From: Bradyrhizobium daqingense
Lineage (GTDB): Bacteria; Pseudomonadota; Alphaproteobacteria; Rhizobiales; Xanthobacteraceae
Reading direction: 5' to 3'
Assembly (NCBI RefSeq): GCF_021044685.1
Contig: NZ_CP088014.1
Location: 2,714,001 to 2,778,000 of the forward strand
Length of the DNA: 64,000 nt
Below are positions 6,212 to 23,299 of this stretch, piece after piece. The number at the start of each line of letters is the position of its first letter. Position 1 is the stretch's first letter. The translations under genes were made by a program, and so were the position numbers. Below the pieces are notes generated by a model. The model saw only the letters and a program-made list of their open reading frames with translations. It did not search any database and was not told the origin of the DNA.

Positions 6212-6218
6212 TCTGTCG

Positions 6219-6749: not shown

Positions 6750-6990
6750 AAAAGACTCCTCTTCTACAATGATTGCAGTGGAACGCCGTAGGCCGGGCGC
6801 TGTTCCCGTCTGGGCAGCCGGGATGCGAAAATCCGAGACGCCAGGCGGCGGAACGTTTCGTTTCCTGGTTGGCGCCGAATGGAGAAAGTGCGTCCGCTGC
6901 CGCTGGCCAATATGGATTTCCATTTCATTGATTTCGCACTGCAGAGAGGCGAATACGGTTCCATCATTGCCGAAGTCCACGGAGACCAAA

Positions 6991-7773
6991 ATGTCTTTTC
7001 GCTTCCCGCTGATCCTCTCGACCGTGCTCGCTCTCTGGTCCGCCGCGGTGCGCGCCGAGACCATCAAGATCGGCGTCACGCCGGGACCGCACGCGCAGAT
7101 CCTGGAGGCGGTGAAGCCGATCGCGGCCAAGCAGGGCCTCGACCTCCAGCTGATCGAGTTCTCCGACTATGTCGTGCCCAACGCCGCGCTCGATGCCGGC
7201 GAGATCCAGGCGAATTCGTTCCAGAACCAACCTTACCTGGACAATCAGAAGGCCGACCGCGGCTATAAGATCGAGGCCGTCGCGCTCACCGTGAACTTCC
7301 CGATCGGCGTCTATTCGAAGAAGCACAAGGCCTTCGGCGACATCCCCGAGGGCGGCAAGGTTTCGATCCCCAACGATCCGACCAATGGCGGCCGCGTGCT
7401 GCTGCTGCTGCGCGACAAGGGCGTGATCAAGCTGAAGGACGGCACCGGCTTCAAGCCGACGGTGCTCGACATCACCGACAATCCCAAAAAGCTGAAGTTC
7501 ATCGAGGTCGATGCGGCGCAGGCGCCGCGTGCGCTCGACGACGTCGACGCCGCCGCGATCAACACCAATTATGCAACCCAGGCGGGCCTCGACCCCGTCA
7601 AGGACCCGATCCTGCGCGAGGACCCGAAGGGACCCTACGTCAACCTGATCGCCGTTCGCGCCGCCGACAAGGACAAGCCCTGGGTCAAGACCCTCGTCAG
7701 CAGCTACCACACGCCTGAGGTCAAGGAATTCGTCCTGACCAAGTTCAAGGGCGCGGTACTGCCGAGCTGGTAG
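6991..7773 (+). CDS. MetQ/NlpA-family substrate-binding protein
   Basis: 260-aa periplasmic binding protein of the methionine-uptake (NlpA/MetQ) family. A signal peptide covers residues 1-22 (cleavage after AVRA); there is no lipobox cysteine, unlike classical lipoprotein MetQ. Family motifs follow: IKIGVTPGPHAQILE, the NAALDAGEIQANSFQNQPYLD stretch around residues 73-95, SIPNDPTNGGRVL, and INTNYATQAGLDP. Known members deliver D/L-methionine to MetN-MetI. No MetN/MetI genes adjoin it, so it is an orphan here, 136 bp before the monooxygenase cassette and on the same strand. ATG 6991 is chosen because it starts the signal peptide. Confidence 0.9.
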   Translation: MSFRFPLILSTVLALWSAAVRAETIKIGVTPGPHAQILEAVKPIAAKQGLDLQLIEFSDYVVPNAALDAGEIQANSFQNQPYLDNQKADRGYKIEAVALTVNFPIGVYSKKHKAFGDIPEGGKVSIPNDPTNGGRVLLLLRDKGVIKLKDGTGFKPTVLDITDNPKKLKFIEVDAAQAPRALDDVDAAAINTNYATQAGLDPVKDPILREDPKGPYVNLIAVRAADKDKPWVKTLVSSYHTPEVKEFVLTKFKGAVLPSW

Positions 7774-7909
7774 GCAGTCTGCCTAGTCCGGCTTCAGTGC
7801 AGGGACGATCCCGGCGGCAGCCTTGCGTATTAGCCTTGCGCAATGCCCGCTTGTCTGGACCTGCGGCAACCGACATCATCGGGGCCCTTCCTCGGCCGAC
7901 AGGGGTCGT

Positions 7910-8944
7910 ATGAAACGCTTTGCAAACCTGAAACGACTGGGCTTCTTCACGCGCCTGCTGGACGAGGCTTCGCCGGCCGAGCGCTACCGGTTCGCCGCCG
8001 AGCAGATCGTGCGCGCGGAGAAGGCCGGGCTCGATTCCGCCTGGATCGCGCAGCATCATTTCCACGAGCGCGAAGGTGGCCTGCCGTCGCCCTTCGCCTT
8101 CCTCGGTTACGTCGCCGCGCAGACCTCGCGCATCCGCCTCGGCACCGGCATCGTCACGCTGCCGCTGGAAAATGCGGTGCGGGTGGCGGAGGACGCCGCG
8201 GTGCTCGACCTGCTCTGCAACGGCCGCTTCGAGCTCGGCGTCGGCACCGGCGGCAACCCGTCGGCCTTCGCCGCCTTCGGCCTCGACAGCGCCCAGCGCA
8301 ACGAGATCTTTGCCCGCAACCTGGAAGTGGTCCGTGCCGCGCTGGTCGGCAAGGCTCTCGACGGTGGCGACACGCTCTATCCGCAACGGCCGGAATTGGA
8401 CAGGCGCATCTGGCAGGCGACATTCTCCGTCGCCGGTGGTGCTCGCGCCGGCAAGGCGGGCGATGGCCTGTTGTTGTCGCGCACGCAGCCGCGGAGCAAG
8501 GATGCGCCGCGCGCGACACTCGCCGAGATCCAGAACCCGATCATCGACGCCTATCTCGCGGCGCTTCCTGTGGGATGCGAGCCCCGCATCATGGCTTCGC
8601 GCAGCGTTTTCGTCGCCGACGACCATGCCGAAGCGATGCGGCTCGCGGACATCGGGTTGCGGCGTGCGCTGCCGCAGTTCATGAAGGGCGGCCATCTCCC
8701 TCCGGGCGACACGCTGGAGGAGATGATCACGGCATTCGATACCCATGTCGGCGCGGCGGACGCGGTCATCGCCTCGCTCCGCGCCGACGCTACGCTCGAG
8801 CGGGTGACCGATCTGGTGTTCCAGGCACATTCGGTCGACGCGCCGCACCCCTATATTTTGCGTTCGATCGAGCTGGTCGCCGACAAGGTCGCGCCGGCGC
8901 TGGGATGGACCCGGACCGCACCTGGCGTGGCGTTGGCGGGCTAA
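7910..8944 (+). CDS. FMN-dependent luciferase-like monooxygenase (KPN_01858-type LLM)
   Basis: 344-aa protein of the bacterial luciferase/LLM superfamily, which use reduced FMN and O2 to oxidise small organic substrates in the cytosol. It shows the family landmarks: an early GFFTRLLD strand, AEKAGLDSAWIAQHHF near residues 40-52, RIRLGTGIVTLP near 85, and GRFELGVGTGG near 115. It is the first gene of a cassette whose next two members are CMD/AhpD-like proteins, the arrangement described for the KPN_01858 / Avi_7170 / Avi_7169 families. Those families are defined by co-occurrence with ABC importers and have no firmly assigned substrate. The start ATG 7910 follows AGGGGTCGT. Confidence 0.88.
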   Translation: MKRFANLKRLGFFTRLLDEASPAERYRFAAEQIVRAEKAGLDSAWIAQHHFHEREGGLPSPFAFLGYVAAQTSRIRLGTGIVTLPLENAVRVAEDAAVLDLLCNGRFELGVGTGGNPSAFAAFGLDSAQRNEIFARNLEVVRAALVGKALDGGDTLYPQRPELDRRIWQATFSVAGGARAGKAGDGLLLSRTQPRSKDAPRATLAEIQNPIIDAYLAALPVGCEPRIMASRSVFVADDHAEAMRLADIGLRRALPQFMKGGHLPPGDTLEEMITAFDTHVGAADAVIASLRADATLERVTDLVFQAHSVDAPHPYILRSIELVADKVAPALGWTRTAPGVALAG

Positions 8945-8999
8945 AGCATGATCCGGAAAAGTGCGCAGCGGTTTTCCGAAAAGATCATGCGCAAACAAA
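8943..8999. repeat. dispersed palindromic repeat (GCATGATCCGG type), copy 1
   Basis: GCATGATC (8946-8953) and GATCATGC (8983-8990) flank GGAAAA...TTTTCC, giving a long stem. A nearly identical copy lies at 56712-56768. It begins at the monooxygenase stop codon and fills the gap before the CMD gene. This element type is common between genes in Bradyrhizobium (memory). Confidence 0.8.
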
Positions 9000-9039
9000 T
9001 AGCCGCAATGAACGGGATCGCGTTGCACGAGGCTGAAGG

Positions 9040-9657
9040 ATGAGCACCAGGGATATCATCGACACGCTCGCCGGGATCGAGCCGGGATCGGCTCCTGATG
9101 CCATCCGCGCCCGCCGCCTTCAGGCGCGCGAGAACGCGCAGAAGAGCTATCTCGCTTTGTTCGAGCCGGTCGATGCGAACGAATTCGCGCTTGCAGAGCG
9201 CTTCGCGATCGCGACCTTCGTGACCGGACTGCATGGCGAGTCGCCCGTCGCGTCCTTCTATCGGGAGAAGCTTGCCGCGACTACGGATGGCGCGGCGCTC
9301 GTCGAGGCGATCCAGGTCGAGATTCAGCGCGGTCGGACCTCCGGCCCCTACGGCGCCTTTCCGGCCGGCCCGTTGTCGATCGAGAACAAGGCCGGTTTGA
9401 TCTATCGCGTCAGCGCGGAGCGCAAGCCCGAGCTCGGCGCCCGGCTCGTTGCGGCGTTCGAGCATGCGCATCTCCTGGTGTTTCGTCCGCGCGATGCCGC
9501 TTCCGCAGACATGAAGGCGCTGCTGGCCGCCGGCTGGTCGACCACCGGGATCGTCACCTTGTCCCAGCTGATTGCGTTTCTGTCGTTCCAGTTGCGCGTC
9601 GTCAGCGGCTTGCGCACGCTCGCCGCAGCGAACGCACAAAAAGAGGCTGCAAGATGA
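9040..9657 (+). CDS. CMD-domain protein, Avi_7170-like
   Basis: 205-aa helical protein related to the carboxymuconolactone-decarboxylase/AhpD superfamily. It begins with DIIDTLAGIEPGS and continues with the helix LAERFAIATFVTGLHG and the C-terminal helix LSQLIAFLSFQLRVVSGLRTL that define the Avi_7170-type group. It lacks the CxxC pair of true AhpD peroxidases, so it may be structural or bind substrate rather than reduce peroxide. Its stop overlaps the next ATG (ATGA), so the two CMD-like proteins are translationally coupled and probably form a hetero-oligomer (inference). It is separated from the monooxygenase gene by a palindromic repeat. Confidence 0.85.
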   Translation: MSTRDIIDTLAGIEPGSAPDAIRARRLQARENAQKSYLALFEPVDANEFALAERFAIATFVTGLHGESPVASFYREKLAATTDGAALVEAIQVEIQRGRTSGPYGAFPAGPLSIENKAGLIYRVSAERKPELGARLVAAFEHAHLLVFRPRDAASADMKALLAAGWSTTGIVTLSQLIAFLSFQLRVVSGLRTLAAANAQKEAAR

Positions 9658-10232
9658 GCGCTCCCGTCAATCCGCCCGTCGCTTTCACCCAGGACGAACT
9701 CGGCTGGGTGTCGTGGATCGATCCGTTGCCCGAGGCCGAGCTGACCGAACGGCATTTCGCCGGCTTCGTCGATCGGGCCCGCGCCAAGTCGGAGTATTTC
9801 CGCCTGCTGGTGCGTGACCCCGAGGTCCTGGAAGCCCGTACCAAGACCGACAAGGACATCTTCTACAACGTCGCCGACGGCCTGCCGCGCGCGGAGCGTG
9901 AGCTCGCGGCGGCGGCGACCTCGCGCTACAATGGCTGCATCTATTGCGCCTCGGTGCATGCGCGCTTTGCCAGCACCTATTCCAAGCGCCGCGACGACGT
10001 GCAGCGGCTGCTCGATGAAGGCGTCGGTGCCGATCTCGGCGAGCGCTGGAGTGCAATCGTCAAGGCCTCGGTGGCGTTGGCTGCAACGCCGATCGCGTTT
10101 GGCCCTGACAATGTCGAGGAGCTGCGCCAGGCCGGGCTCGACGACGCCGAGATCGTCGACGTCATCAACGGTGCTTCATTCTTCAACTGGGCGAACCGGC
10201 TGATGCTGTCGCTCGGCGAGCCTTCGAAATGA
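9654..10232 (+). CDS. alkylhydroperoxidase-domain protein, Avi_7169-like (CxxC)
   Basis: 192-aa AhpD/CMD-superfamily protein. The redox motif is visible in NGCIYCASVHARFAS around residues 90-104: CxxC followed two residues later by the conserved His, as in AhpD-type peroxidases. Upstream comes the GFVDRARAKSEYFRLL helix and afterwards the DVINGASFFNWANRL helix. It would use the Cys pair for thiol-dependent peroxide or related redox chemistry in the cytosol, perhaps removing peroxide by-products of the flavin monooxygenase encoded two genes upstream (inference). It overlaps the preceding gene by 4 bp and the ABC transporter genes follow directly. Confidence 0.88.
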   Translation: MSAPVNPPVAFTQDELGWVSWIDPLPEAELTERHFAGFVDRARAKSEYFRLLVRDPEVLEARTKTDKDIFYNVADGLPRAERELAAAATSRYNGCIYCASVHARFASTYSKRRDDVQRLLDEGVGADLGERWSAIVKASVALAATPIAFGPDNVEELRQAGLDDAEIVDVINGASFFNWANRLMLSLGEPSK

Positions 10233-10291
10233 GCAATCCGATCGGCACAAGAATTGCTGATCTTATCAACACTGAGTGGATGGAGCGGGAA

Positions 10292-11449
10292 ATGAGCAAC
10301 ATCGATCGTCGGTCCCTGGTCAAAGGCTCCCTCGCCACGATGATGGCGGGCGCGGCTTTCTCGCGCGCCGCCTTCGCGCAATCCTCCGAGCCGATCCTGC
10401 TCGGCGTCAGCGGACCCCTGACCGGACCGAATGCGCAATATGGCACGCAATGGAAGCAGGGCTTTGATCTCGCACTCGACGAGATCCAGGCTGCCGGCGG
10501 CATCAACGGCCGCAAGCTCGCCTACCAGTTCGAGGACAGCCAGAGCGACCCGCGCCAGTCGGTGGCGATCGCGCAGAAATTCGTGTCCGATCCCCGCATC
10601 GTCATGGAGCTCGGCGATTTCTCCAGCCCCGCCTCGATGGCAGCCTCGCCGATCTATCAGCGCGGCGGCCTCGTGCAGTTCGGCTTCACCAATTCGCACC
10701 CTGATTTCACCAAGGGCGGCGACTTCATGTGGAGCACGTCGGTGAGCCAGGCCGACGAGCAGCCGCTGCTGGCGTCCTATGCCGTGAAGCGGCTCGGCCT
10801 GAAGAAGCTCGCGGTGCTGCATCTCAACACCGATTGGGGCCGCACCAGCCGCGACTATTTCGTCAAGGCGGCCAAGGAATATGGCGCCGAGATCGCGGTG
10901 ACCGAGGGCTATATCGCGGAGGAGCGCGACTTCCGCTCCACGCTGGTGCGTGTACGCGATGCCAATCCCGACGGTCTGATCCTGATCTCCTATTATTCCG
11001 ACGGCGCGCTGATCGCGCGTCAGGCGCGCCAGGTCGGCCTGAAGCAGACCATGTGCGCCGCAAGCTCAGTCTATTCGCCAAAATTCCTGGAGCTCGGCGG
11101 AGAGGCGGTCGAGAACGTGCATCTCGGCACGCGCTATTTCCCGGAAGACCCGCGGCCCGAGGTGAAGAAGTTCATTGCCGGCTTCAAGGCGAAGTATGGC
11201 GGGCAGGAGCCCGACGCCTTCAACGCCTATTCCTACGACGCGATGAACATGGCGGCTGCCGTGCTGAAGATCGGCGGCACCGACCGCCGCGCCATCCGCG
11301 ACGCCTTCGCCAAGGTGAAGGACGTTTCCAGCGTCATCTTCGGCCAGGCGACGTTCGACGTCGAGAGCCGTCGCGTCAAGGGCGCCATGAATGCCGAGCT
11401 CGTCGTGCGCAAGGGCCAGTTCGCACTCTGGGACGGCAAGCCGACCTGA
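10292..11449 (+). CDS. branched-chain-amino-acid-type ABC transporter substrate-binding protein
   Basis: 385-aa periplasmic binding protein of the HAAT (Leu/Ile/Val-type, peripla_BP_6) family. N-terminus: MSNIDRRSLVKGS then a hydrophobic stretch ending AFAQ, a Tat-like or Sec signal cleaved near residue 30. The body has ILLGVSGPLTGPNAQYG, LAYQFEDSQSDP and ISYYSDGALIARQARQVGLKQ, all standard for the family. An in-frame ATG at 10229 overlapping the previous stop would add 21 residues before the signal sequence; 10292 is preferred because it places the twin-Arg segment at the N-terminus. HAAT proteins bind amino acids, amides, urea or aromatic compounds; linkage to the monooxygenase/CMD genes argues against simple leucine uptake. 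Confidence 0.92.
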   Translation: MSNIDRRSLVKGSLATMMAGAAFSRAAFAQSSEPILLGVSGPLTGPNAQYGTQWKQGFDLALDEIQAAGGINGRKLAYQFEDSQSDPRQSVAIAQKFVSDPRIVMELGDFSSPASMAASPIYQRGGLVQFGFTNSHPDFTKGGDFMWSTSVSQADEQPLLASYAVKRLGLKKLAVLHLNTDWGRTSRDYFVKAAKEYGAEIAVTEGYIAEERDFRSTLVRVRDANPDGLILISYYSDGALIARQARQVGLKQTMCAASSVYSPKFLELGGEAVENVHLGTRYFPEDPRPEVKKFIAGFKAKYGGQEPDAFNAYSYDAMNMAAAVLKIGGTDRRAIRDAFAKVKDVSSVIFGQATFDVESRRVKGAMNAELVVRKGQFALWDGKPT

Positions 11450-11503
11450 TGTGATGGCCGAAGCGATCGCTCCAGCCGGTTTCTCGTTGATTAGGAATTC
11501 TGC

Positions 11504-13327
11504 GTGTCCTCCTGGCTCGACTACACCATCAACGGGCTGATCGTCGGCAATGTCTACGCGCTCGTTGCGGTCGGGCTCGCGCTGATCTTCGGCGTCAGCC
11601 GGCTGATCAACTTCGCGCAAGGCTCGATCTACCTCGTCGGCGCCTATATCGGCTGGGTCGCGGTGGTGCAGCTGCACACGCCGCTGCCGCTCACCATCAT
11701 CGTGGTCGCCGTGGCCGCCGCCGTGGTCGGCCTAATCATCGAGCGCTTTGGCCTGCGGCCGCTGCAGAACTCCGTGCGCATCGCGCCGTTGCTCGCGACC
11801 ATCGGCATCAGCTTCGTGCTCGACCAGCTGGTGATGCTGACCTTCTCGCCCAATCCGCGCGCGCTGCCGAGCCAGTTGCCCGATATCCGCTTCCAGGTCG
11901 GTGGCGGGACGATCGGACCACTCGACCTGCTCATCGCCGGCGTCGGCCTCACCAGCGCGCTGCTGCTGTTCGTGTTCCTGCGCTACACCAAGCTCGGCTG
12001 GGCCGTGCGTGCCACCGCGCAGGATCGTGACGCCGCCATGCAGATGGGCGTCGACGTCAATCGCGTCAATCAAGCCGTGTTCGGCATTGCGGCGGCGCTC
12101 GGCGGCGTCTCCGGCCTGCTGGTCGGCATGTACTATAACCAGATCGACACCGCGATGAGCCTTCAGGCGACGCTCAAGGGCGTCGTCGCGGAAGTCGTCG
12201 GCGGCGCGGGCAACGTGCCGGGCGCGGTCATCGGCAGTCTGCTGCTGGGATTGGTCGAGAGCTACGGCGTGGCCATGCTCGGCACCAGCTATCGCAATCT
12301 GTTCGCGTTCCTGCTGCTCGTCGTGGTGCTCGTGCTGCGGCCGAACGGCCTGTTCGTCAGCGCGCGGCAGGCGCCGCCCGAGCCGCTCACCGGCACGTTC
12401 ATCGCGCCGAGCCGCCCGGTGCACATTCCGCGCTGGGCGCTATTGGTCGCGGTTGCCGGCTTCGCGATCCTGCCGCTGTTCCCGGTGTCCTTCTACGTGC
12501 TCCAGACCCTGATCAACGCCTGGCTGCTCGGCATGCTTGCGCTGAGTCTGACTTTGGTGGCGGGCACGATGGGGCAGGTGTCACTCGGCCATGCCGCATT
12601 GCTCGCGATCGGCGCCTACACCTCCGCGTTGCTGTCGCTGACATTGGCCGTTCCCGTGGGGCTCGCGGTCATCGGCGGCGGCCTGATGAGTGCCGCGCTC
12701 GGCACGCTCCTGATCTCGCCGTCGTTCCGCCTGCGCGGGCATTACGTCTCGATCGCAACGCTCGCCATCGGCGAGATCGTGGCGCTGGTGATCCTGAACT
12801 GGGAAAGCGTGACGCGCGGGCCGATCGGCATCTCCGGCATCCCGCCGCTGTCGCTGTTCGGCTACGATCTGATCGGCCCGACGTCGATCTACTGGTTCAG
12901 CCTCGCGGTGATGGTCGTGCTCGCGCTGCTCCAGGGGCGCCTGCTGACCTCGCATCTCGGCCGCAGCTTTCGCGCCATCCGCGACGACGACATCGCCGCG
13001 CGCGCCTATGGCCTCGGCCTCAACCGCTATAAATCGCTCGCCTTCATCTTCGGCGGGTTCGCCGCCGGAATCAGCGGCGGCATCGCCGCGCATCTTTATT
13101 CCTACATCAACCACGAGACCTTCAATACGCAGCAATCCATCCTGGCGCTGACGGTCGTGATCCTCGGCGGCCTCGGCAACGTCGTCGGCGCGATCCTCGG
13201 ATCGGTCGCGCTGGTCGGCCTGCCCGAAGTCTTTCGGATCGCGGCGGAGTACCGCATCCTGATCTACGGCATCGTGCTGCTGCTGCTGGTGCGGTTCAGG
13301 CCGCAGGGCCTGCTGGGGACGGTCTGA
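11504..13327 (+). CDS. fused LivH-LivM-type ABC transporter permease
   Basis: 607-aa inner-membrane permease combining both HAAT permease subunits in one chain. Residues ~1-290 are LivH-like ([31 protein letters not shown], and the [12 protein letters not shown] cytoplasmic loop). Residues ~310-607 are LivM-like ([26 protein letters not shown], then [16 protein letters not shown] and the [12 protein letters not shown] loop). A Pro-rich linker ([10 protein letters not shown]) joins the halves near residue 290. Start is a GTG with GGAATT upstream. Its stop overlaps the ATPase start by 1 bp (TGATG). It provides the membrane channel for the binding protein encoded before it. Confidence 0.93.
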
Positions 13328-14169
13328 TGGCGGAGCGGCCCAACTCCATGCTGTCCCTGCGCGGGCTGACCCGCCGCTTCGGCGGTCTCACCGCGGTCGA
13401 CGCCATCGATCTCGACCTCGCCAAAGGTGAGCTCGTCAGCATCATCGGTCCAAACGGCGCGGGCAAGACCACGCTGTTCAATCTCGTGACCGGCCTCGAC
13501 CGGCCCGACGCCGGTACTGTGAGCTTCGAAGGCCAGGACGTGACGGGTCTATCGCCGGAACGGATTGCGACCGAAGGCATCGCGCGCACCTTCCAGCTCG
13601 GCCGCGTCTTCGGCAATCTCAGCGTCATGGACAACGTCCTGATCGGCGCGCATACGCGGCTGCGTGCCGTGAAGCCGGCCGTGCCCGTGATCGGCCCGCT
13701 GCTGGAGCTCGGATTGGCGTTGCTGCGTCCTGCCAGCGTCAAGGCGGAGGAGGAGCGGCTGCGCGAAGAGATGAAGGCCATTCTCGCTCGCTTCGGCGAG
13801 CGGCTGCTGTCGCGGATTGACCAGCCCGCCTACAGCCTGTCCTACGCCAACCGCCGCCGCGTCGAGATCGCGCGTGCGCTCGCGCTGAAGCCGCGCCTCT
13901 TGCTGCTCGACGAGCCGACCGCCGGCATGAACCCGACCGAGACCGCGGAGATGCAGGCGCTGGTCGCCGAATTGAAGGCGGAAGGGCTGACCATCCTCCT
14001 GATCGAGCACAAGCTGGAAATGGTGATGCGCCTGTCCGACCGCGTCATCGTCATGGACGAGGGCAAGAAGATCGCGGAAGGGCCGGGCGAACAGGTGCGG
14101 AGCGATCCCAAGGTGATCGAGGCCTATCTCGGTCATGGCCTCGCGACGAAGCAGGAGAGCGCGGCATGA
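13327..14169 (+). CDS. ABC transporter ATP-binding protein, LivG type
   Basis: 280-aa ATPase subunit. Walker A is GPNGAGKTT near residues 38-46, Walker B LLLDEPTAGMNP near 197, with the H-loop in LLIEHKLEMVM. The LivG-specific insert after the Q-loop (TFQLGRVFGNLSVMDNVLIG and a ~50-residue helical extension) is present. The signature segment is degenerate, SYANRRRVEIARAL instead of LSYGQQRRLEIARAL, a mild oddity. It energises the HAAT-type importer together with the following LivF-like subunit, which starts 4 bp before this stop. Confidence 0.92.
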   Translation: MAERPNSMLSLRGLTRRFGGLTAVDAIDLDLAKGELVSIIGPNGAGKTTLFNLVTGLDRPDAGTVSFEGQDVTGLSPERIATEGIARTFQLGRVFGNLSVMDNVLIGAHTRLRAVKPAVPVIGPLLELGLALLRPASVKAEEERLREEMKAILARFGERLLSRIDQPAYSLSYANRRRVEIARALALKPRLLLLDEPTAGMNPTETAEMQALVAELKAEGLTILLIEHKLEMVMRLSDRVIVMDEGKKIAEGPGEQVRSDPKVIEAYLGHGLATKQESAA

Positions 14170-14906
14170 CCAACGCTTCCGCCGAACCGCTGCTGGCGCT
14201 GTCGAACGTCAATACCTTCTACGGCCAGGCCCAGGTGCATTTCGACCTCTCGATATCGGTCGCGCGCGGCCATATCGTCTGTCTGCTCGGCGGCAATGCC
14301 AGCGGCAAGTCGACGACGATGAAGATCATTCTGGGTCTGGTAAAGCCGCGCTCCGGCGACGTGACGTTCGATGGTGCTTCGTTGCTGGGCCTCTCCACGC
14401 CGCAGATCGTCCGCCGCGGCATCGCCTCGGTGCCGGAGGCGCGACGGCTGTTCGCGGACATGAGCGTCCGCGAGAACATCCTGATGGGCGCCTTCGTGCG
14501 CAACGACCGCGAGGCGGTGGCGCAGGATCTCGACAGGATGCTCACGCTGTTCCCAAAGCTCGGCCAGCGCCTGTCGCAGCGCGCCGGCTCGCTCTCCGGC
14601 GGCGAGCAGCAGATGGTGGCGATGGCGCGCGCGCTGATGAGCCGGCCGCGCATGATCGTGATGGACGAGCCGACCATGGGCCTGTCGCCGCTTTATGTCG
14701 ATCGCGTGCTGGAGCTGATCCGCACCATCAACCAGGAGGGCGTCTCGGTGTTCATGGTCGAGCAGAACGCCAGCCTCGCGCTGGAGATCGCGCATGAAGC
14801 CTATGTGCTTCAGACCGGCAAGATCGTGCTGTCAGGCCCGGCGCGGACACTGAAGGACGATCCCCGCATCCGCGACGCCTATCTCGGCGGTTCCGAGGCG
14901 GCGTAG
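14166..14906 (+). CDS. ABC transporter ATP-binding protein, LivF type
   Basis: 246-aa second ATPase of the HAAT importer. Motifs: NVNTFYGQAQVHFDLS N-terminus typical of LivF, Walker A GGNASGKSTT (Ala-Ser where Gly-Ala is usual), VPEARRLFADMSVRENI, signature LSGGEQQMVAMARAL, Walker B MIVMDEPTMGLSP, and FMVEQNASLALE. Walker A retains the GKST core, so it should bind ATP. It ends the 7.9-14.9 kb cassette; a palindromic repeat follows. Confidence 0.92.
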   Translation: MTNASAEPLLALSNVNTFYGQAQVHFDLSISVARGHIVCLLGGNASGKSTTMKIILGLVKPRSGDVTFDGASLLGLSTPQIVRRGIASVPEARRLFADMSVRENILMGAFVRNDREAVAQDLDRMLTLFPKLGQRLSQRAGSLSGGEQQMVAMARALMSRPRMIVMDEPTMGLSPLYVDRVLELIRTINQEGVSVFMVEQNASLALEIAHEAYVLQTGKIVLSGPARTLKDDPRIRDAYLGGSEAA

Positions 14907-14934
14907 TCCTAAATGCCCCCACAACGTCATGACC

Positions 14935-15010
14935 GGGCTTGACCCGGCCATCCACGGCTTGCCCTGCGGCACGAAGAACGTGGATGCCCGGGACAAGCCC
15001 GGGCATGACG
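14935..15010. repeat. dispersed palindromic repeat (CGTCATGACCGGGCTTG type)
   Basis: CGTCATG at one end and CATGACG at the other, enclosing GGGCTTGACCCGGCCATCCACG and its imperfect complement CGTGGATGCCCGGGACAAGCCC. It folds into a long hairpin just after the LivF-type gene and could terminate that operon. Elements of this kind are dispersed in Bradyrhizobium genomes (memory). Confidence 0.7.
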
Positions 15011-15062
15011 ACCTCCCGCAAACTCGCATAGGCGTTCGGCAGGCCAAAGTCGGCACTGGTCA

Positions 15063-15090
15063 GTATGACCATCCTGTGAAAATATCATAC
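15063..15090. promoter_or_regulatory. NikR operator (GTATGA-N16-TCATAC)
   Basis: GTATGA at 15063-15068 and TCATAC at 15085-15090 are separated by exactly 16 bp, which reproduces the palindromic NikR box of the E. coli nik promoter. It ends 37 bp before the start codon of the nickel permease, where bound nickel-NikR would block transcription. nikR itself is not in the window. Confidence 0.85.
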
Positions 15091-15127
15091 CGGTGGCGAC
15101 GGGGCGTGCAGCGGACGGAATGATATC

Positions 15128-16186
15128 GTGACGAGATGGTCTTTGCGGGCGGTCGAGCCCGGCGTGGTGTTGCTGTTCGGCGGGCTCGTCGCCGCCAATG
15201 TCGCCGCATGGGCCTGGGCCTTCACGGCGTTCGGCGACCGTCCCACGGTGATGGCGACCGCGCTGCTGGCCTGGGTGTTCGGCCTCCGGCATGCCGTCGA
15301 TGCCGATCACATCGCCGCCATCGACAATGTCGTGCGCAAGCTGATGCAGGCGGGCGGCGCGCCGCGCAGCGTCGGGCTCTATTTCGCGCTCGGCCATTCC
15401 ACCGTCGTCGTGGTCGCGACCATGCTGCTGGCGCTCGGCGTCGTCAGCCTCGGCGGCGACAGCCTGCTCGAGCAGATTGGCGGCCTGATCGGCACCTCGG
15501 TCTCGGCGCTGTTCCTGCTGCTGATCGCGGCCATCAATCTCGCCATCTTCGCCGGCCTGTGGCGGACGTTCCGCATGGCGCGCGAGCAGGGCATTCACGA
15601 CGCCGCCGGCCTCGATGCGCTGCTCGCCAAGCGCGGGTTCCTGGCGCGGCTGCTCGGCCCGATGTTCCGCCTGGTGACGAAGCCCTGGCACATGTATCCG
15701 CTCGGCTTCCTGTTCGGGCTCGGCTTCGACACCGCGACCGAGATCGGCCTGCTCAGCATCTCCGCCGGCGAAGCCGCGCGCGGCGCTTCGCTTGTCGACG
15801 TGTTGGTTTTTCCGGCGCTATTCGCAGCCGGTATGGCGCTGGTCGATACCGCCGATTCCGCGCTGATGGTCAGCGCCTATCGCTGGGCCTTCGTCGATCC
15901 CCTGCGCAAGCTCTGGTACAATCTCACGATCACGGGCGCCTCCGTCGCGGTGGCGCTGTTCATCGGCGGCGTCGAGGCGCTCGGCCTGATCGCGGAACGC
16001 CTCGGCTTGTCCGGCGGCTTCTGGGCGGTGGTGGAAGGGCTCAACGAATCGCTGGCGAATGTCGGCTTCGTCGTGGTCGCGCTGTTTGCGGTGGCCTGGC
16101 TCGTCTCGGTCCTGCTCTATCGCCGCATGTTTGCGGATGGGGCGCGCCGTGCGCCAGATGCAGCCCGCGGCTTCGAGGCGGCCTGA
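15128..16186 (+). CDS. high-affinity nickel transporter, NiCoT (HoxN/NixA) family
   Basis: 352-aa inner-membrane permease with about eight hydrophobic segments. The family signature in the second membrane segment, RHAVDADHIAAIDN, is intact near residues 57-70, followed by the LGHSTVV segment and LGFDTATEIGLL near 205-216. NiCoT proteins import Ni2+ and sometimes Co2+ by proton-coupled transport; nickel is favoured here because an exact NikR box lies just upstream. In rhizobia nickel feeds urease and uptake hydrogenase. Start: GTG at 15128 after GGACGGA. It is transcribed alone and converges on the HerA-like gene. Confidence 0.92.
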   Translation: MTRWSLRAVEPGVVLLFGGLVAANVAAWAWAFTAFGDRPTVMATALLAWVFGLRHAVDADHIAAIDNVVRKLMQAGGAPRSVGLYFALGHSTVVVVATMLLALGVVSLGGDSLLEQIGGLIGTSVSALFLLLIAAINLAIFAGLWRTFRMAREQGIHDAAGLDALLAKRGFLARLLGPMFRLVTKPWHMYPLGFLFGLGFDTATEIGLLSISAGEAARGASLVDVLVFPALFAAGMALVDTADSALMVSAYRWAFVDPLRKLWYNLTITGASVAVALFIGGVEALGLIAERLGLSGGFWAVVEGLNESLANVGFVVVALFAVAWLVSVLLYRRMFADGARRAPDAARGFEAA

Positions 16187-16206
16187 GACGATTCTAAATC
16201 GGCGGA

Positions 16207-17733
16207 TCAGAGCGCCGCCGCGCTCCGCGCGGGCTCCGCCGGCACATCGTCGCCATTGGGATCGCCCGGCGCCGTCGCCCAGGCCAGCTCCACCAGCGTC
16301 ACGATCCGGCGGCCGCCGCCGTCGACCTGGACGACGATCAGGCCCTGCTCCTCCATATAGCCGAGCAGCCGCTGCGCGCGGCGCAGCGAATGCGAGCCGT
16401 AGGCGCGGGCGATCGCGGCGTCGCCGGGGCAAGGCCAGCCTTCCCTGGCCGCGCGCGCGAGCATCATGAACACGCCCTGCATGTCGTCGGGCAGGATCGA
16501 GGCGCGCAGCGAGACGTCCTGCCAGGCGTCGTCCTCGGCGAGATCCGTGCCGAGCCCGGCCCGCGCATGCGTCAGCATGCGGCGGAATTCGTTGAGATCG
16601 GGCACCGCCGCGCCAAGCCCCTCGATGCGGCAGCGAACCACGAACTCCTGATAGAGCACGCCGATGGCGCGGAAGCCGGCGTCGGGCTCGGCCAGCACGG
16701 CGCGCAGCGTGCGATCGACGCGCTCGCGCCGCTGCGCGAGCTCCTCGGCGCTGACCGGCGCCTCCACGATTTCGGGCTGGATCTCCGGGATCGCGGCGGC
16801 CTTCGCCGCCCGGAGCTGCTCGAGCAGATCCGGCGCGGGCCGCCGCTGCGGCCGGCTGGCATCGGGCGGCGGCGCCGCCAGGATCACGGCGCGGACATCT
16901 TCCAGCGTCGCTTCCGGCAGCGGCATCAGCCGCGGCGTCGAATTGCGCGGGCTCGTATCGGTCGGGCCGATGTTCAAACGCAGCGGACGGCGCGACAGCG
17001 CAGGCCCCAGCGCCATGAACTGTCCGCGCTCGAGATCGCGAAACGCTTCGGCCTGCCGCCGCTCCATGCCCAGCAGGTCGGCGGCGCGCGCCATGTCGAT
17101 GTCGAGGAAGGTCCGGCCCATCAGGAAGTTGGAGGCTTCCGCCGCGACGTTCTTGGCGAGTTTTGCCAGGCGCTGCGTCGCGATGATGCCGGCGAGGCCG
17201 CGCTTGCGGCCGCGGCACATCAGATTGGTCATCGCGCCGAGCGACAGTTTGCGCGCTTCGTCCGAGACTTCGCCCGCCACCGCCGGCGCGAACAGCTGCG
17301 CCTCGTCGACGACCACGAGCATCGGGTACCAATGGTCGCGGTCGACATCGAACATGCCGCCGAGGAATGCGGCCGCACGGCGCATCTGGTTCTCGGCGTC
17401 GAGGCCTTCGAGATTGAGCACGGTGGAGACGCGATGCAGCCGCGCGCGCTCGCCGGCGACCTGAAGGCCGCGTTCGGTGTGATCCTCGGCCTCGATCACG
17501 AGATGGCCGAAGCGCTCCGCCAGCGTGACGAAATCGCCTTCGGGATCGATGATGGCCTGCTGCACCCAGGGCGCGCTCTGTTCCAGCAGCCGCCGCAACA
17601 GATGCGACTTGCCGGAGCCCGAATTGCCCTGCACCAGGAGACGGGTCGCCAGCAGTTCCTCGAGGTCCATGGCCGCCGCGGCGCCCGCCGTGGTCTGCCC
17701 CATCTCGATCGCAACCGTCATGTCCCGACTCAA
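16207..17733 (-). CDS. HerA/FtsK-like P-loop ATPase
   Basis: 508-aa ATPase. Walker A GNSGSGKS lies near residues 37-44 and the Walker B segment LVVVDEAQLF near 140-150, followed by GLAGIIATQRLAKLAKNV (sensor/arginine region) as in HerA/VirB4-type AAA-like pumps. The region after ~residue 260 is Pro- and Ala-rich, and the end (~400-490) looks like a winged-helix, with GYMEEQGLIVVQVDGGGRR. Family members include DNA-translocating helicases and uncharacterised bacterial 'ATP-binding proteins'; no nuclease (NurA-like) partner is adjacent, so the function is open. M1 or M5 (17721) could be the start. The YkgJ-type gene lies 92 bp upstream on the same strand. Confidence 0.8.
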   Translation of the reverse strand: MSRDMTVAIEMGQTTAGAAAAMDLEELLATRLLVQGNSGSGKSHLLRRLLEQSAPWVQQAIIDPEGDFVTLAERFGHLVIEAEDHTERGLQVAGERARLHRVSTVLNLEGLDAENQMRRAAAFLGGMFDVDRDHWYPMLVVVDEAQLFAPAVAGEVSDEARKLSLGAMTNLMCRGRKRGLAGIIATQRLAKLAKNVAAEASNFLMGRTFLDIDMARAADLLGMERRQAEAFRDLERGQFMALGPALSRRPLRLNIGPTDTSPRNSTPRLMPLPEATLEDVRAVILAAPPPDASRPQRRPAPDLLEQLRAAKAAAIPEIQPEIVEAPVSAEELAQRRERVDRTLRAVLAEPDAGFRAIGVLYQEFVVRCRIEGLGAAVPDLNEFRRMLTHARAGLGTDLAEDDAWQDVSLRASILPDDMQGVFMMLARAAREGWPCPGDAAIARAYGSHSLRRAQRLLGYMEEQGLIVVQVDGGGRRIVTLVELAWATAPGDPNGDDVPAEPARSAAAL

Positions 17734-17825
17734 GTCCCCGTCATTCGCGGACAGCGGCTTATCAACCCGGCCGGCGCGCGTCGAGCGCCAGGGCGCGAAT
17801 CAGGCTGCGTTGCCCACGGCAGAGT

Positions 17826-18644
17826 TCAGGCGTGATGCGACAACCGTAGAAGTGCGGGCCGATACGGCGCGTGCGGATCGTCGTCTTCGTTCTCGGGGAT
17901 GGCGCAGGAGCCGAATTCCTGCCTGATGCGTTCGATCTCGGCAATGCGCTCGTGCAACCGCTGCAGATGCTCCGGCGACGTCGCCCGCCAGAACCGGAAT
18001 GTATCGCTAGTGAGCGGCAGGAACGCAGTTCCGAACAGCGTCGGCTCCGGAACGACGGTGCGTCCGAGCAGCAGGAACCGGTCCGCGCCGGCGACGACCA
18101 GGGTCGCATAGCCGCGGTTGCCGATCCGCCGGATGCCGTTCAGCGACCATTCGACGAGCTTGCTGAAATAGGGCTCCTCGCGCCAGCGATCGGGGCATTC
18201 GTCGTCGACGGTGACGTTCACGGCGTCCTGGCTGAAATGCACCACGAGGCCCGCTTGCGCGGGAAACCAGGACTCGTCGAGATGGCCCTGCAACCAGGCA
18301 CAGACGAACGAGCGGCACATCTGCGGGCGGCGATCGTAGATGGTGCAGCCCGTACCGGTCTGCCAATGCTTGCAGAGCTGGTTCACCGGCTTGTCGACGG
18401 CGGCCACCTCCAGAATATCGCAGCAGGCGTTGCATGAGCCGCACTGCCGAGCGGGCCGCACCGCCTTCGGCAGGCCGGTCGCGCGAAAGCCCTGGCCGTT
18501 GCGGACCAGCAGCTTCTGCTTCTCCAGCAGATTCAACGCACGTTCGATCTTGAGACGGGACAGTCCGGTGGCGTCGATCACGCCCTTCAACGTCGTCGCG
18601 CCCGCCTCCACGGCGCGGACGACGGTCAGCATCGCCTGATCCAT
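17826..18644 (-). CDS. YkgJ-family cysteine-cluster protein with N-terminal winged helix
   Basis: 272-aa protein. Residues ~1-60 resemble a winged-helix domain (ATTLKGVIDATGLSRLKIERALNLLEKQKLL). From ~70 a Cys cluster of the YkgJ/CxxCxxCC family appears: CGSCNACCDI, then LCKHWQTGTGCTIYDRRPQMCRSF, eight Cys in about 55 residues, likely binding Zn or an Fe-S cluster. The rest has no recognised fold. The combination of a DNA-binding-like N-terminus and a metal cluster suggests a regulator, but this is inference; the family has no established role. ATG 18644 begins the wHTH; longer starts add a basic stretch without support. Confidence 0.75.
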   Translation of the reverse strand: MDQAMLTVVRAVEAGATTLKGVIDATGLSRLKIERALNLLEKQKLLVRNGQGFRATGLPKAVRPARQCGSCNACCDILEVAAVDKPVNQLCKHWQTGTGCTIYDRRPQMCRSFVCAWLQGHLDESWFPAQAGLVVHFSQDAVNVTVDDECPDRWREEPYFSKLVEWSLNGIRRIGNRGYATLVVAGADRFLLLGRTVVPEPTLFGTAFLPLTSDTFRFWRATSPEHLQRLHERIAEIERIRQEFGSCAIPENEDDDPHAPYRPALLRLSHHA

Positions 18645-19109
18645 TGTTGTTGTTCTTCTCGGTTTCAGCCGTGCATTGCGATTCCAGCCGGAAAAACAGA
18701 CCGGCAAACAGGTCATAGACACCTGACTTGAAAAGATATGTTGCTCATTTCTCTTGCAGCTGGGCAAGAAGCCGAGCCCGTGCTGCGCGCATGCAACGTT
18801 TGCGCGAACAGAGGGCGTACACGTCGAGGGCGCCGATTTCGTGTGGAAGCGGTTTGCTTTGCTCGCCGGATGCCGGGATGTGACGTGCGCCCTGCGATCG
18901 TCTCACGCAGTCGTGATATCGGCCGGCCACGCATGAGCACGAAGGCGATCCGTCGCGCGACCAGGGGCGATGATGGTCGTTGGGTTTGCGCCACACCGCG
19001 AACAGCGCCGCGCCTGGAAGCAAGCGACGGTGCAGATGAGGGATCCCCATTCGCGGCGGAGAATGATTCAGATCAAGGTCCGTGAGCCCGCAACCTGTTA
19101 GCTGGGCCG
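18645..19109. other. intergenic region, no convincing gene
   Basis: 465 bp between the leftward YkgJ-type gene and the rightward LysE-type gene. Short frames on both strands are Arg/Ala-rich without motifs or ribosome sites. I see no strong palindrome or terminator. Confidence 0.5.
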
Positions 19110-19694
19110 ATGAGTTTTCTGACCTTCTTCACCGCGACCTGCTTCCTGCTGGCATTGCCGGGGCCGACCAACACCTTGCTCGCGACATCGGGGGCGGGGG
19201 GCGGCATCGCGCGCTCGCTGCATCTGCTCGCGGCCGAGCTCGCCGGCTATCTGCTGACGATCACGCTGCTGCGGCTCGCGCTCGGTCCGATCGTCAGCGA
19301 CATCCCGCTCGCGGCCATGGTGCTTCGCGTGGCGGTGACGGTCTACATCCTGTGCCTGGCCGTCATGCTCTGGCGGTTCCGGTCGCGTGAACTGCGGGGT
19401 AGCGCACCGGTGACCTTCAATCACGTGCTGCTCACCACGCTCTTGAACCCCAAGGCGCTGGTGTTCGCCTTCCTGCTCCTGCCGCTCCAGGCGGGGCCGT
19501 TCGAGCTGGTGCCCCGGCTTGCCGTGATCGCGCTCTTGATCGTCACGGCGGGCATTGCGTGGGTGACGTTTGGCGCAACGCTCGGCCGCGGCGCCCGCCG
19601 CCTCGGACATCCCGACCTCATCACGCGCACCGGCGCAGTCACGCTGGTCGCGGTGACCGGCCTGATCTGGGTTCAATCGTTCCTGGGCGCGTGA
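19110..19694 (+). CDS. LysE/RhtB-family amino-acid exporter
   Basis: 194-aa inner-membrane protein with five to six hydrophobic segments. The family motif ALPGPTNTLL lies near residues 14-23, in the first membrane segment, and the second conserved region LLNPKALVFAFLLLP near 113-127. LysE/RhtB proteins export lysine, arginine, threonine, homoserine or related compounds by proton antiport. The substrate cannot be predicted. A monocistronic unit convergent with the ketopantoate-reductase-like gene; only 25 bp separate their stop codons. Confidence 0.88.
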   Translation: MSFLTFFTATCFLLALPGPTNTLLATSGAGGGIARSLHLLAAELAGYLLTITLLRLALGPIVSDIPLAAMVLRVAVTVYILCLAVMLWRFRSRELRGSAPVTFNHVLLTTLLNPKALVFAFLLLPLQAGPFELVPRLAVIALLIVTAGIAWVTFGATLGRGARRLGHPDLITRTGAVTLVAVTGLIWVQSFLGA

Positions 19695-19719
19695 GACCGG
19701 CGTCCGCCGGAACAGCGCG

Positions 19720-20784
19720 CTACTGCGCGCCGGATCCGCCCTGCACGATCTTCTCGTTCAGCTTCAGATCCACGGTCTCGACCGTGCGGTCGATCTCGGG
19801 GTTGGGCGCGCCGAGCTGATGCGAGATCAGCTTCACCAGGAGATCGACGCGCTCGATGAAGGGTGCGCCGCTCGCGACCGCGCGCGCGGCAGATGACGGC
19901 TTGAGCAGGCTTTCCGCGGCCTTGGCATATTTTGCGAACGGCACCTGGTCCTGCGGATCGGCTCCGAGCTTGCGGGCGATCGCGTCGACATGGTCGTAGA
20001 TCGTCTGCGAGCGCTCGAGATCGCCATGCACGGCGTCGCGAATCGATTGCGGCTCGTTGGGCGTGATGCAGCGGTAGTTGCCGGTCAGCAGCATCGACCA
20101 TTTCGCCAACGGCACGAACAGCGAATCGAACACTTTCAGCTTCACCGGCACGTCGAGGCCGTCGAGCGTCACCGCGTCGATGTCGGCCTCCAATTCGCGC
20201 AGCACCTTGTTGTGCTTCTCGTCGGCGAACACCGACGCCTTGAAGTTGGTGGGCAGGCCGACATGAAGCACGTTCGCGGCTTCTTCCGGAGGACGGAACG
20301 CCTGCGGGTCGGGCGAGCAGAGCGTCACCAGACCCGGCTCGAACCGCTCCCACACCTGCGCATTGGTGTAGGCCTCCTCGAGATCCATGTCCGCGAGCGC
20401 CGGAATCCGCTTCAGATAGGGCAGCGGCGGCATGTTCATGATCGACAGGCACGGCAGCTTCGCCGCGGCGATCTTGACCATGAGAACGCGCACCGTGTGG
20501 TTGGTGTACTGCGGCTCCTGCATCGCAAGGCCGACCAGATCGTAGCGGGAGAGGTCGACATCGGCCGGCGTCACCGCATCGAGCTTGCCGGGCAGATTGC
20601 GCGAGAAGATTGCCCGGTGCACCGCCTCGTCGCGCAGTTTGATGCGCACCTCGGTACCGTCGCGGTTGATCAGCGCGGCCGTCTTGGCGCGGCAGACCAG
20701 GGTCACGTTATGACCCGCCATCAGCAGCTTCGTGCCCAGCAGTGAGCCGTAAGAAGCCCCGAGAATCAATATGTTGCGCGCCAT
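19720..20784 (-). CDS. ketopantoate-reductase-like (PanE/ApbA family) dehydrogenase
   Basis: 354-aa protein with an N-terminal Rossmann fold: ILILGASYGSLLGTKLLMAGHNVTLVCR, where the dinucleotide-binding glycines are GASYGSLLG instead of the usual GxGxxG. The C-terminal half is helical with KLKVFDSLFVPLAKWSMLLTGNYRC, corresponding to the PanE C-terminal domain that carries the catalytic Lys. It could reduce a 2-keto acid with NADPH, but length (354 versus ~300 aa) and the altered glycine motif suggest a divergent paralogue rather than the pantothenate-pathway enzyme. ATG 20784 is preceded by AAGGGGACGGAG, a strong ribosome site. Confidence 0.8.
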   Translation of the reverse strand: MARNILILGASYGSLLGTKLLMAGHNVTLVCRAKTAALINRDGTEVRIKLRDEAVHRAIFSRNLPGKLDAVTPADVDLSRYDLVGLAMQEPQYTNHTVRVLMVKIAAAKLPCLSIMNMPPLPYLKRIPALADMDLEEAYTNAQVWERFEPGLVTLCSPDPQAFRPPEEAANVLHVGLPTNFKASVFADEKHNKVLRELEADIDAVTLDGLDVPVKLKVFDSLFVPLAKWSMLLTGNYRCITPNEPQSIRDAVHGDLERSQTIYDHVDAIARKLGADPQDQVPFAKYAKAAESLLKPSSAARAVASGAPFIERVDLLVKLISHQLGAPNPEIDRTVETVDLKLNEKIVQGGSGAQ

Positions 20785-21637
20785 GCTCCGTCCCCTTGAG
20801 AATGTGTGTGATTTTTGAGCCCCGGCCGTCATCCGCGGGCGAGTTGCCAGCATGTAAAGCGAAGTCCGCGGGGATGGCAACTGGGATAATGCATACAAGG
20901 CCGCACCGGAGTCTGGGTCGTCCGGATGGAGGGGTGCGCAATTCGACGACCATTCCGTCCGCTGGCGCGAACGCCGGCCTGCCTCGCGCGATCTGGCCAC
21001 GGACGCTCGTTTGTCGCGCGACGGGTCAAGGCGCTCGCGGCTTCGACGCATGCCGCCCGGTCCGCTTGCTCAATCCCGCAGGCGTCACCGAATTGACTTC
21101 ACCGAATCCGATCTCTCGGATGTCCCGTCCGTTCGGGCGCTCTGTGAAGTGCGATCATACGTCGTCGCACGTCGCGTGCAGAAGATCAGCAAGTTGGCCG
21201 GCTCGCTGTCATCGTCCTGTCATGTCGCCGGTTGGCTTCGATGAAGCGGCAAACCGCCGCATCGCTCACCATATCGTGGTTTCACAATGACGGCACAGAC
21301 AGGCATGTCTGTTCTATCGGCGGTTAAGTTGTCTTCATCGCCGATCGCAACGAGAAACGACGAGGCCCGCATCGCAAGTGTGCGCGGCGAATGACTTGTG
21401 CAACAGCGATGGAGCTGGGACGTGACGATTGAGTTGAGCCGGCCTCGACTTGGTGCCCAAGTTGGCTCGTTTGGGATGCCGGCCGTCTCGCGCAGTGCCC
21501 CCGCCGCGCGACGCCTAGATGAAACGGTGCGCCTGCGATGGCATCGAGCAGTTGCGCAGGGCGCTGTGCAGAACGCGAAATTCGCCGGTCTGGACACAAG
21601 TCCGGGCAATTGTTGACGGCGTCGCTCGGGGGCTGAG
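20785..21637. other. intergenic region, no convincing gene
   Basis: 853 bp between the leftward PanE-like gene and the rightward hydrolase-like gene. The frames present are short and Arg/Ser/Cys-rich with no family resemblance. No clear terminator, repeat or RNA gene was seen. Confidence 0.45.
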
Positions 21638-22717
21638 ATGGAAGGGGATCATTGGCCTTGCGGCGCATGCGACGGTGCCGGGCAAAATCTGGCCCGCTTG
21701 CGGGATCGCGCGTCACAATTTTTCGAAAGCCTGTCCGTCGCCGAGCTCGTGCGTGAGACGCACCGGCGTCTGTGGATTTCGGACTGGCTGAGACTCGCAG
21801 ACGACTACCGCACATTGGCCGAGAGCGCGCGCGACGTTGGGTCCGCCGAGATTGCGCGGGAAGCGTGGCTCTGCTCGTTGACGGCCCTCGAAGTCGTCAG
21901 GACTCTGTCCTGTCCGGGGGATGTCGAAAGTGCCGATCTCGCAGACGAGGTCGGTATCGGCCTGAGAGGCTTCGAGGCCGAGGCTGGTCTGGCGATTGAG
22001 CGCGTCAAGATCGATTTCTTCGATCAAGGGGTGCTGGCCGGCTTCTTCCTGCCGGCGCTCCGTCGCGGACCTACCGCGCCGGCGGTGATCTGCGTCAGCG
22101 ACGGGGACATCACCCTGGGCTCGATGATGAGCAGGCTGTTGCCGGCCTCGCTCTGCGGGAGCATGTCGCTGCTGCTCGTCAATGCCGGCAATTCGACTGT
22201 TCATCGCTCCTTCAAGCCGGAGCACAGGCTTCAGTGCTGGTTGGACTATCTGGAAGCTCGCCCCGATGTCGATTCGCAGCGGATCGCGATCTATGGTGAA
22301 GGGGCGGGCGCCTCCCACGCGTCGCGTCTCGCCCTCTCGGATCGCAGGATCGCGGCGGCGGTGTGCGACGGCGGTGTCTCGACGCCGGTCATGCGGAGAG
22401 CGCTGCGGCGGATGACCAGTTTCGGACCGGCCGTCCCTGACGGAGCCTCGGCGGGTTCGTTGCTGCCATCGCGCCGGCTTCCGTGCCCGCTGCTCATGGT
22501 CGTCGGGACTCGCTCCATGATCTGGGAGCAGGATGCTCTCGACCTGCAAGCCGGCTATCGGGAGAGTGGAGCGGATTGCTCGGTCGTCGTGCCCAACAAC
22601 GTGCCGCACCCGCTCGGCGAGGTCGAGAATTTCATCGCCGTCGACAACTTCGTGCTCGATTGGCTCGACAGCAAGCTCGGGACTGCCCGTCAGCATGAAC
22701 CCGTGACATACCTGTAG
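21638..22717 (+). CDS. alpha/beta-hydrolase-like protein with degenerate nucleophile elbow
   Basis: 359-aa protein. Residues ~1-120 are helical (AREAWLCSLTALEVVRTL), with CGACDGAG near the N-terminus. Residues ~125-350 follow the alpha/beta-hydrolase order of FrsA/DUF1100-type enzymes: PAVICVSDGD strand, RRIAAAVCDGG, PCPLLMVVGTRS and a terminal PHPLGE histidine. The nucleophile elbow, normally G-x-S-x-G after the IAIYG strand, reads GEGAG, so the Ser is replaced by Gly. It may be a non-catalytic member or use another residue. Ribosome site: GGGGGCTGAG before ATG 21638. Neighbours give no clue to substrate. Confidence 0.7.
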   Translation: MEGDHWPCGACDGAGQNLARLRDRASQFFESLSVAELVRETHRRLWISDWLRLADDYRTLAESARDVGSAEIAREAWLCSLTALEVVRTLSCPGDVESADLADEVGIGLRGFEAEAGLAIERVKIDFFDQGVLAGFFLPALRRGPTAPAVICVSDGDITLGSMMSRLLPASLCGSMSLLLVNAGNSTVHRSFKPEHRLQCWLDYLEARPDVDSQRIAIYGEGAGASHASRLALSDRRIAAAVCDGGVSTPVMRRALRRMTSFGPAVPDGASAGSLLPSRRLPCPLLMVVGTRSMIWEQDALDLQAGYRESGADCSVVVPNNVPHPLGEVENFIAVDNFVLDWLDSKLGTARQHEPVTYL

Positions 22718-22795
22718 CGCGGTCAGGCCATGGCGGTGCGCGCTTTGGCCTCGTCGTGAAGAGCTGGAGTGGATGTCGCGAGCCATGAAGGCCGA

Positions 22796-23275
22796 TCACG
22801 AGGCGTCGATAGCCAGCAATCGTGCCGCCAGCCGGGCGTTCCTGGCAATGGTTGCGAGCGCGGCATTCAGTTCACTCAAGGTCTTCTCGTCGAGCTCGTT
22901 GAACATGGTCGAGTTCAAGGCGAGCTTTCTCTTGGACAGTTTCTCGATTTCCGCCGTCGCCTTCGCGGTCAGCGACATCAGAATGAAGCGGGCATCGTCC
23001 GTTGCCGGCTGCCGCGATAGAAAGCCGCCCTTTTCCAGGATCTTGGTCTGGTTGGTCACGAAGGCCGGGTGGACCCGCAACTTGTTCGCGATCTCGATGC
23101 CGGCAACGCCTCGCCCTTCGTCCAGCTCGGTGATCGCCATCAAGATCAGCCATTGCGGCTGGGTAATGCCCAACAGTCCGGCCCAGCTGGTGTGAATGTC
23201 GTCCAGCTGCGCGTGGATTTCGACGATGTTCCAGATGAATTCCCTGATCGTTTTGTCGAGCTTCTTCTCGATCAT
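22796..23275 (-). CDS. MarR-family transcriptional regulator
   Basis: 159-aa winged-helix regulator. The core spans about residues 35-110: ITQPQWLILMAITELDEGRGVAGIEIANKLRVHPAFVTNQTKILEKGGFLSRQPATDDARFILMSLT, with the recognition helix at HPAFVTNQTKILEKGG and the wing D-A-R dipeptide; both ends are dimerisation helices. MarR proteins are dimeric repressors released by small aromatic ligands or oxidants. The start has a GGGGGGCAACGCGGC leader, and a 7-bp dyad lies 24 bp upstream of the ATG, a possible autoregulatory operator. It diverges from the porin. Confidence 0.9.
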   Translation of the reverse strand: MIEKKLDKTIREFIWNIVEIHAQLDDIHTSWAGLLGITQPQWLILMAITELDEGRGVAGIEIANKLRVHPAFVTNQTKILEKGGFLSRQPATDDARFILMSLTAKATAEIEKLSKRKLALNSTMFNELDEKTLSELNAALATIARNARLAARLLAIDAS

Positions 23276-23299
23276 GCCGCGTTGCCCCCCGTAATGACG

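Follow-up and report, generated by a model that had tools for sequence, protein, structure and literature searches.

A gene for a nickel/cobalt permease of the NiCoT family in Bradyrhizobium daqingense is preceded by an exact copy of the palindrome GTATGA-N16-TCATAC, and the best explanation is that this box is a NikR operator, that the permease would be a NikR-repressed nickel importer and that it belongs with a TonB-dependent receptor to a small regulon serving a nickel route across two membranes. This reading is built on comparisons of sequence and is given a probability of about 0.93.

The window, by which is meant the whole 64,000-nucleotide stretch that was analysed, carries the putative operator GTATGACCATCCTGTGAAAATATCATAC at positions 15063-15090, where a pattern scan found 0 mismatches. 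The palindrome, which is assigned to neither strand, is one of two exact copies in the genome and is kept ahead of close NiCoT genes; its half-sites, read directly from the forward strand, are GTATGA at 15063-15068 and TCATAC at 15085-15090. The permease gene follows on the forward strand at 15128-16186 and encodes 352 amino acids from a GTG start, this GTG at 15128 being the first possible in-frame start after a stop at 15077. Between the end of the box at 15090 and the start codon lies a gap of 37 bp (15091-15127, forward strand), which is presumed from its position to hold the transcription start and leader and is without a sigma-70 consensus match. The perfect half-sites, the exact spacing and the distance of 37 bp to the GTG had all been described in an initial annotation of this DNA and were found to be correct. 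The same annotation called the permease "lone", which is fair, as its upstream neighbour is a Liv-type ABC operon and the next gene downstream runs on the opposite strand.

A scan for sigma-70 promoter and terminator consensus sequences around the box gave no match, and an overlap of box and promoter is thus proposed from position only. When 25 upstream regions were aligned on the box there were a few conserved letters just 5' of it, an A-rich spacer and no clear -35/-10 pair, so that no promoter is claimed. Two other features of the neighbourhood may be recorded. The Liv-type ABC permease (window 11504-13327) is one frame of 607 amino acids with two BPD_transp_2 stretches, apparently combining two permease subunits in a single fused protein. 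Downstream of the ABC operon and upstream of the box, at window 14927-15012, is a GC-rich, inverted-repeat-like stretch, tgaccgggcttgacccgg ... gcccgggacaagcccgggca, which looks like a dispersed intergenic repeat.

The initial annotation had predicted that a NikR would be encoded elsewhere, and the genome indeed holds one full-length nikR. It was detected as the single NikR_C match in a profile search (C1:886015-886242, 95.9 bits against a cut-off of 22), 1.84 Mb from the permease box. The protein of 148 amino acids scored 189 bits against TIGR02793 (cut-off 175), 205.7 against NF002815 (cut-off 83) and 134.2 against NF003381 (cut-off 105). The solved structures nearest to it are 1q5v and 2hzv, which we take to be those of E. 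coli NikR, and 71 of 131 aligned residue pairs are identical between the E. coli protein and this one. All seven residues aligned with R3, T5, T7, H76, H87, H89 and C95 of the E. coli protein are identical, positions 3, 5 and 7 presumably being its DNA base contacts and 76, 87, 89 and 95 its nickel ligands. The nikR gene adjoins a gene whose translated product looks like a heavy-metal P-type ATPase, and no box was found beside it in this genome, the best candidate within 3.2 kb having 5 mismatches.

Scanning the genome for more copies of the palindrome, a check proposed in the initial annotation, turned up one further exact copy, ahead of a gene for a TonB-dependent receptor. This second box (C1:2652913-2652940) lies 66 bp upstream of the first start in a frame of 739 amino acids; box and receptor together occupy C1:2652913-2655226 (L034:4914-7227), outside the window. 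The second box lies 61 kb before the first base of the window, and the receptor locus is 76 kb from the permease box. Both domains of such receptors were recognised, the plug (PF07715, 55.1 bits) and the barrel (PF00593, 70.9 bits). Against named models for siderophore, haem, B12 and PQQ receptors all five NCBIfam matches were far under cut-off, and the solved relatives of the receptor, PQQ and B12 receptors, are only distant. Permease and receptor, each standing behind an exact box, would probably both be shut off at sufficient nickel.

A survey of the genus found NikR_C in 43 of 60 genomes and the exact box in 42 of 60, with 52 boxes in all and none in any of the 60 for a control pattern. 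The two go together: exact boxes occur in 40 of 43 NikR-positive genomes and in 2 of 17 NikR-negative ones (Fisher p 1.8e-9), a value that ignores phylogeny, the genomes of the genus being related and so not independent samples. In G008, G013 and G026, the three NikR-positive genomes that have no exact box, there is a one-mismatch box at a NiCoT gene. Part of the scarcity of boxes in NikR-negative genomes comes from most of them being without a close NiCoT, which is present in only 3 of the 17, and not from the loss of operators ahead of genes that were kept.

Of the 52 boxes, 51 flank NiCoT, nikR or TonB receptor genes. Nineteen precede NiCoT genes, 12 lie in the interval separating nikR from a TonB receptor, 7 precede nikR, 13 precede a TonB receptor and one is at none of these; for 7 of the 19 boxes linked to nikR the placement is by coordinates alone, the gene on their other side not being read, and 2 of the 13 receptor-linked boxes (L103 and L121) precede receptors that are only 26-27% like that of B. 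daqingense. Thirty nikR loci were read (L003 and L067-L095), and 24 of these have nikR next to a P-type ATPase gene and no box in the locus closer than 3 mismatches. In the other six, nikR and a TonB receptor gene are divergently arranged and an exact box occupies the gap between them; L094 and L095 also show an ATPase match on the opposite side. Several genomes have the two transport genes in tandem, the receptor directly after the NiCoT. One of the 31 box loci read, L100 of genome G042, has its exact box (L100:1501-1528) beside no NiCoT, nikR or TonB receptor; its neighbours would, to judge from their translations, encode a GST-like protein and a LysR-type regulator.

Extending the search to the family, own genus included, gave exact boxes in 99 of 295 genomes, with the control in 2 of 295. 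Ten box loci from this search were read, of which eight have a TonB receptor like the B. daqingense one, four of these with nikR as well, and two (L222 and L229) have none of NiCoT, nikR or TonB receptor. A separate observation concerns G134, a genome assigned to a different genus within the family: positions 5940-25939 of the window are 100% identical, over the 20,000 bp compared and without mismatch or gap, to a contig of 91,410 bp in that genome (L234). A match of this kind between genera points either to contamination in the G134 assembly or to doubt over how that genome is classified.

Conservation of the box ahead of the permease was followed through 30 NiCoT loci, 27 of them close to the B. 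daqingense gene (76-100% identity) and 3 distant (52-56%). Every one of the 24 close NiCoTs examined from NikR-positive genomes is preceded by the box, with 0 (n=15) or 1 (n=9) mismatch. Measured to aligned codon 1, the box lies 20-40 bp upstream in 23 of these 24 loci; the 24th, L063, represents one piece of a match that was split, and its distance carries no meaning. Close NiCoTs in NikR-negative genomes have sites with 0 (G018), 2 (G009) and 4 (G029) mismatches, and the three distant NiCoTs examined have 3-5 mismatches. Further distant matches (G047:C12, G052, G041 and G048), along with weak matches, fall outside the 30-locus set. Among second NiCoT copies, those at G014:C434, G058:C65 and G035:C2 have exact boxes, by coordinates, and those in G055 and G002 have none in an exact-pattern search.

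Loci from named records point the same way. This set comprised 80 loci, 17 of them from Bradyrhizobium, and leaving out L153, which is cut off at a contig edge, all 16 with upstream sequence have the box with 0 (n=12) or 1 (n=4) mismatch; these 16 overlap with the 24 loci of the genus set. Outside Bradyrhizobium only 1 of 63 loci, L151 from Candidatus Phyllobacterium onerii, has a box of no more than one mismatch ahead of the permease, and there nikR stands beside it. L181 and L189 have a one-mismatch box at a different place in the locus, where its neighbour is nikR or a TonB receptor.

How much weight a single palindrome can bear depends on what would be expected by chance. With as many as 3 mismatches allowed, the window yields 4 matches against 7.29 expected, so loose matches carry no meaning and it is the exactness of the match that counts. 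The whole genome similarly has 534 sites at this tolerance against 596 for the reversed control, again no excess. Were the box a chance or structural match, with the permease controlled by other means, this lack of excess is what would be seen, and yet such an account is extremely improbable when the exact sites are considered. There are 2 of these in the 8.0 Mb of the single contig and none of the reversed control pattern, against 0.086 expected from a base composition computed on 48 kb of the B. daqingense genome. The recurrence of the exact box in 42/60 genomes of the genus and 99/295 of the family, set against controls of 0/60 and 2/295, speaks equally against chance, as does its nearly fixed place 20-40 bp ahead of aligned codon 1 in 23 of 24 NikR-positive loci, the remaining one being a fragmented match. 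Thirteen two-mismatch sites occur in the genome among the matches listed, and it is possible that there are further NikR targets among such weaker sites.

Even as a true regulatory site, the box might be read by a different metal regulator that shares the half-site, and boxes in genomes that have no nikR would then be accounted for. Two such exact boxes are known from the genus, at the NiCoT of G018 (L232) and at the TonB receptor of G022 (L233). A separate NikR search in G018, G022, G009 and G029 found no match in any of them; it included no positive control, and the search of 60 genomes with NikR_C (43 positive) is the better evidence. The boxes of G018 and G022 are possible orphan operators, and could reflect recent losses of nikR, gaps in the assemblies or indeed another regulator. 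Reading the loss of nikR from a single locus was tried and rejected: the downstream neighbour of nikR was present in 6 of 6 genomes searched, yet it is apart from nikR in NikR-positive G035, so that this locus says nothing on loss in G018 or G022. As a general account a different regulator is scarcely credible, since the exact box is kept in only 2 of 17 NikR-negative genomes, the sites of the close NiCoTs in G009 and G029, with their 2 and 4 mismatches, look like decay after nikR loss, and the B. daqingense genome itself has nikR.

The metal carried is a question apart from the identity of the regulator. The permease is a clear member of its family, matching PF03824 with 362.5 bits and TIGR00802, the HoxN-HupN-NixA subfamily, with 428 bits against a cut-off of 333 in profile searches. 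Against the NicT equivalog NF052500 it scored 348.4 bits, under the cut-off of 450, and it is therefore not filed as NicT. The signature motif of NiCoTs is RHAxDADHI, and the B. daqingense permease has RHAVDADHI at residue 54, the V being the HoxN-like, nickel-selective form. This V is found in all 25 of the 27 close genus loci in which the motif was found; it is also in 60 of the 80 named-record loci, and as it is common to most of the family it was rejected as a nickel marker because it does not discriminate. A cobalamin riboswitch ahead of the permease was likewise rejected, as no Rfam family reached gathering score anywhere in the window.

Cobalt in this genome appears to be wired otherwise. 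An Rfam search found 7 cobalamin riboswitches above gathering score, and the genes behind six of them encode two TonB receptors, a cobalamin-independent methionine synthase, a DUF1636-CobW protein, CbiM and a ribonucleotide reductase. Cobalt appears to be linked to B12 riboswitches and CbiM, and nickel to NikR, the NiCoT and the TonB receptor. Genes for nickel enzymes are also present, with 2 matches to urease alpha and 1 to NiFe-hydrogenase above cut-off; urease and hydrogenase require nickel. It could nonetheless be argued that the NikR site is real and that the permease serves chiefly for cobalt, or for both metals, repression by nickel serving only to prevent mismetallation. That the family spans strict nickel to cobalt preference, as stated by Zhang et al. 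2009 (PMC2667541), lends this some plausibility, and so does the score of 348 against 450 for the NicT equivalog. It is nevertheless unlikely, because CbiM and other B12 or cobalt genes are behind cobalamin riboswitches and the permease gene is not, because the urease and hydrogenase need nickel, and because the permease and the TonB receptor share a type of box that in relatives is also found at nikR. The V of RHAVDADHI also favours nickel, and is a weak point in that it recurs in 60/80 named-record loci. The proposal of the initial annotation that nickel rather than cobalt is the cargo thus stands as a strong inference, not a demonstration, with CbiM under the cobalamin riboswitch instead.

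On the preferred reading, that of a NikR operator governing a nickel importer, Ni-NikR would occupy the 28-bp palindrome when cytoplasmic nickel is sufficient and would block transcription of the permease, the palindrome lying, to judge from its position, at the expected site of the core promoter. Under nickel scarcity apo-NikR would release the box and the permease would be made. The TonB-dependent receptor 76 kb away would be switched in the same manner by NikR through its own exact box, and receptor and then permease would provide a route for nickel across both membranes, the metal being probably in chelated form at the outer membrane and, once imported, feeding urease and NiFe hydrogenase.

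With this assignment nickel becomes the likely metal of a permease for which family membership does not decide the matter, its probable repressor is named and a link is made to an outer-membrane receptor, so that nikR, permease and receptor become direct targets for work on how nickel crosses both membranes in Bradyrhizobium. The pattern of nikR and boxes across the genus may also be regarded as a small natural experiment on the fate of operators after the regulator is lost. A broader interpretation, to which slightly less than even odds are given, is that NikR of Bradyrhizobium runs a complete two-membrane route, a chelate TonB receptor plus NiCoT, as loose modules that may be separate loci, a tandem pair or a receptor divergent from nikR; that loss of nikR is followed by loss of the operators; and that G018 and G022 have been caught en route to constitutive nickel import.

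The switch proposed here has close parallels. The initial annotation equated the box with the operator of E. coli NikR, and this agrees with PMC7055735, where the operator at nikABCDE is GTATGA-N16-TCATAC. Half-sites and spacing are identical in the two organisms, and the NikR proteins are identical at the contact positions. They differ in what is controlled, the B. daqingense boxes preceding a secondary permease and a TonB receptor instead of nikABCDE, and nikR standing apart. In Zhang et al. 2009 (PMC2667541), NikR control of nickel-type NiCoTs is predicted by comparative genomics, with earlier work cited; the same NikR-dependent control is proposed here, with no difference in kind, and the box is followed across Bradyrhizobium. 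A literature search, with most subscription journals outside its coverage and its sources available in part, met with no experimental test of NikR in Bradyrhizobium.

For the outer membrane, a table in PMC7142613 gives Bll6948, a TonB receptor of B. diazoefficiens, as a predicted nickel receptor, citing Rodionov et al. 2006, and PMC11247825 names it among nickel receptors. Bll6948 and the B. daqingense receptor, both TonB-dependent receptors of Bradyrhizobium assigned to nickel, are probably of the same kind. The NikR box of H. pylori differs in type from that of B. daqingense. FrpB4 of H. pylori is described in PMC3856676 as a NikR-repressed TonB receptor for nickel, and is in that respect like the NikR-repressed outer-membrane nickel receptor proposed for B. 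daqingense. Predicted nickel and cobalt TonB receptors form a cluster of their own, according to PMC2771747. The B. daqingense case is therefore a further, well-supported instance of a switch already known, in a genus for which a nickel TonB receptor had already been predicted.
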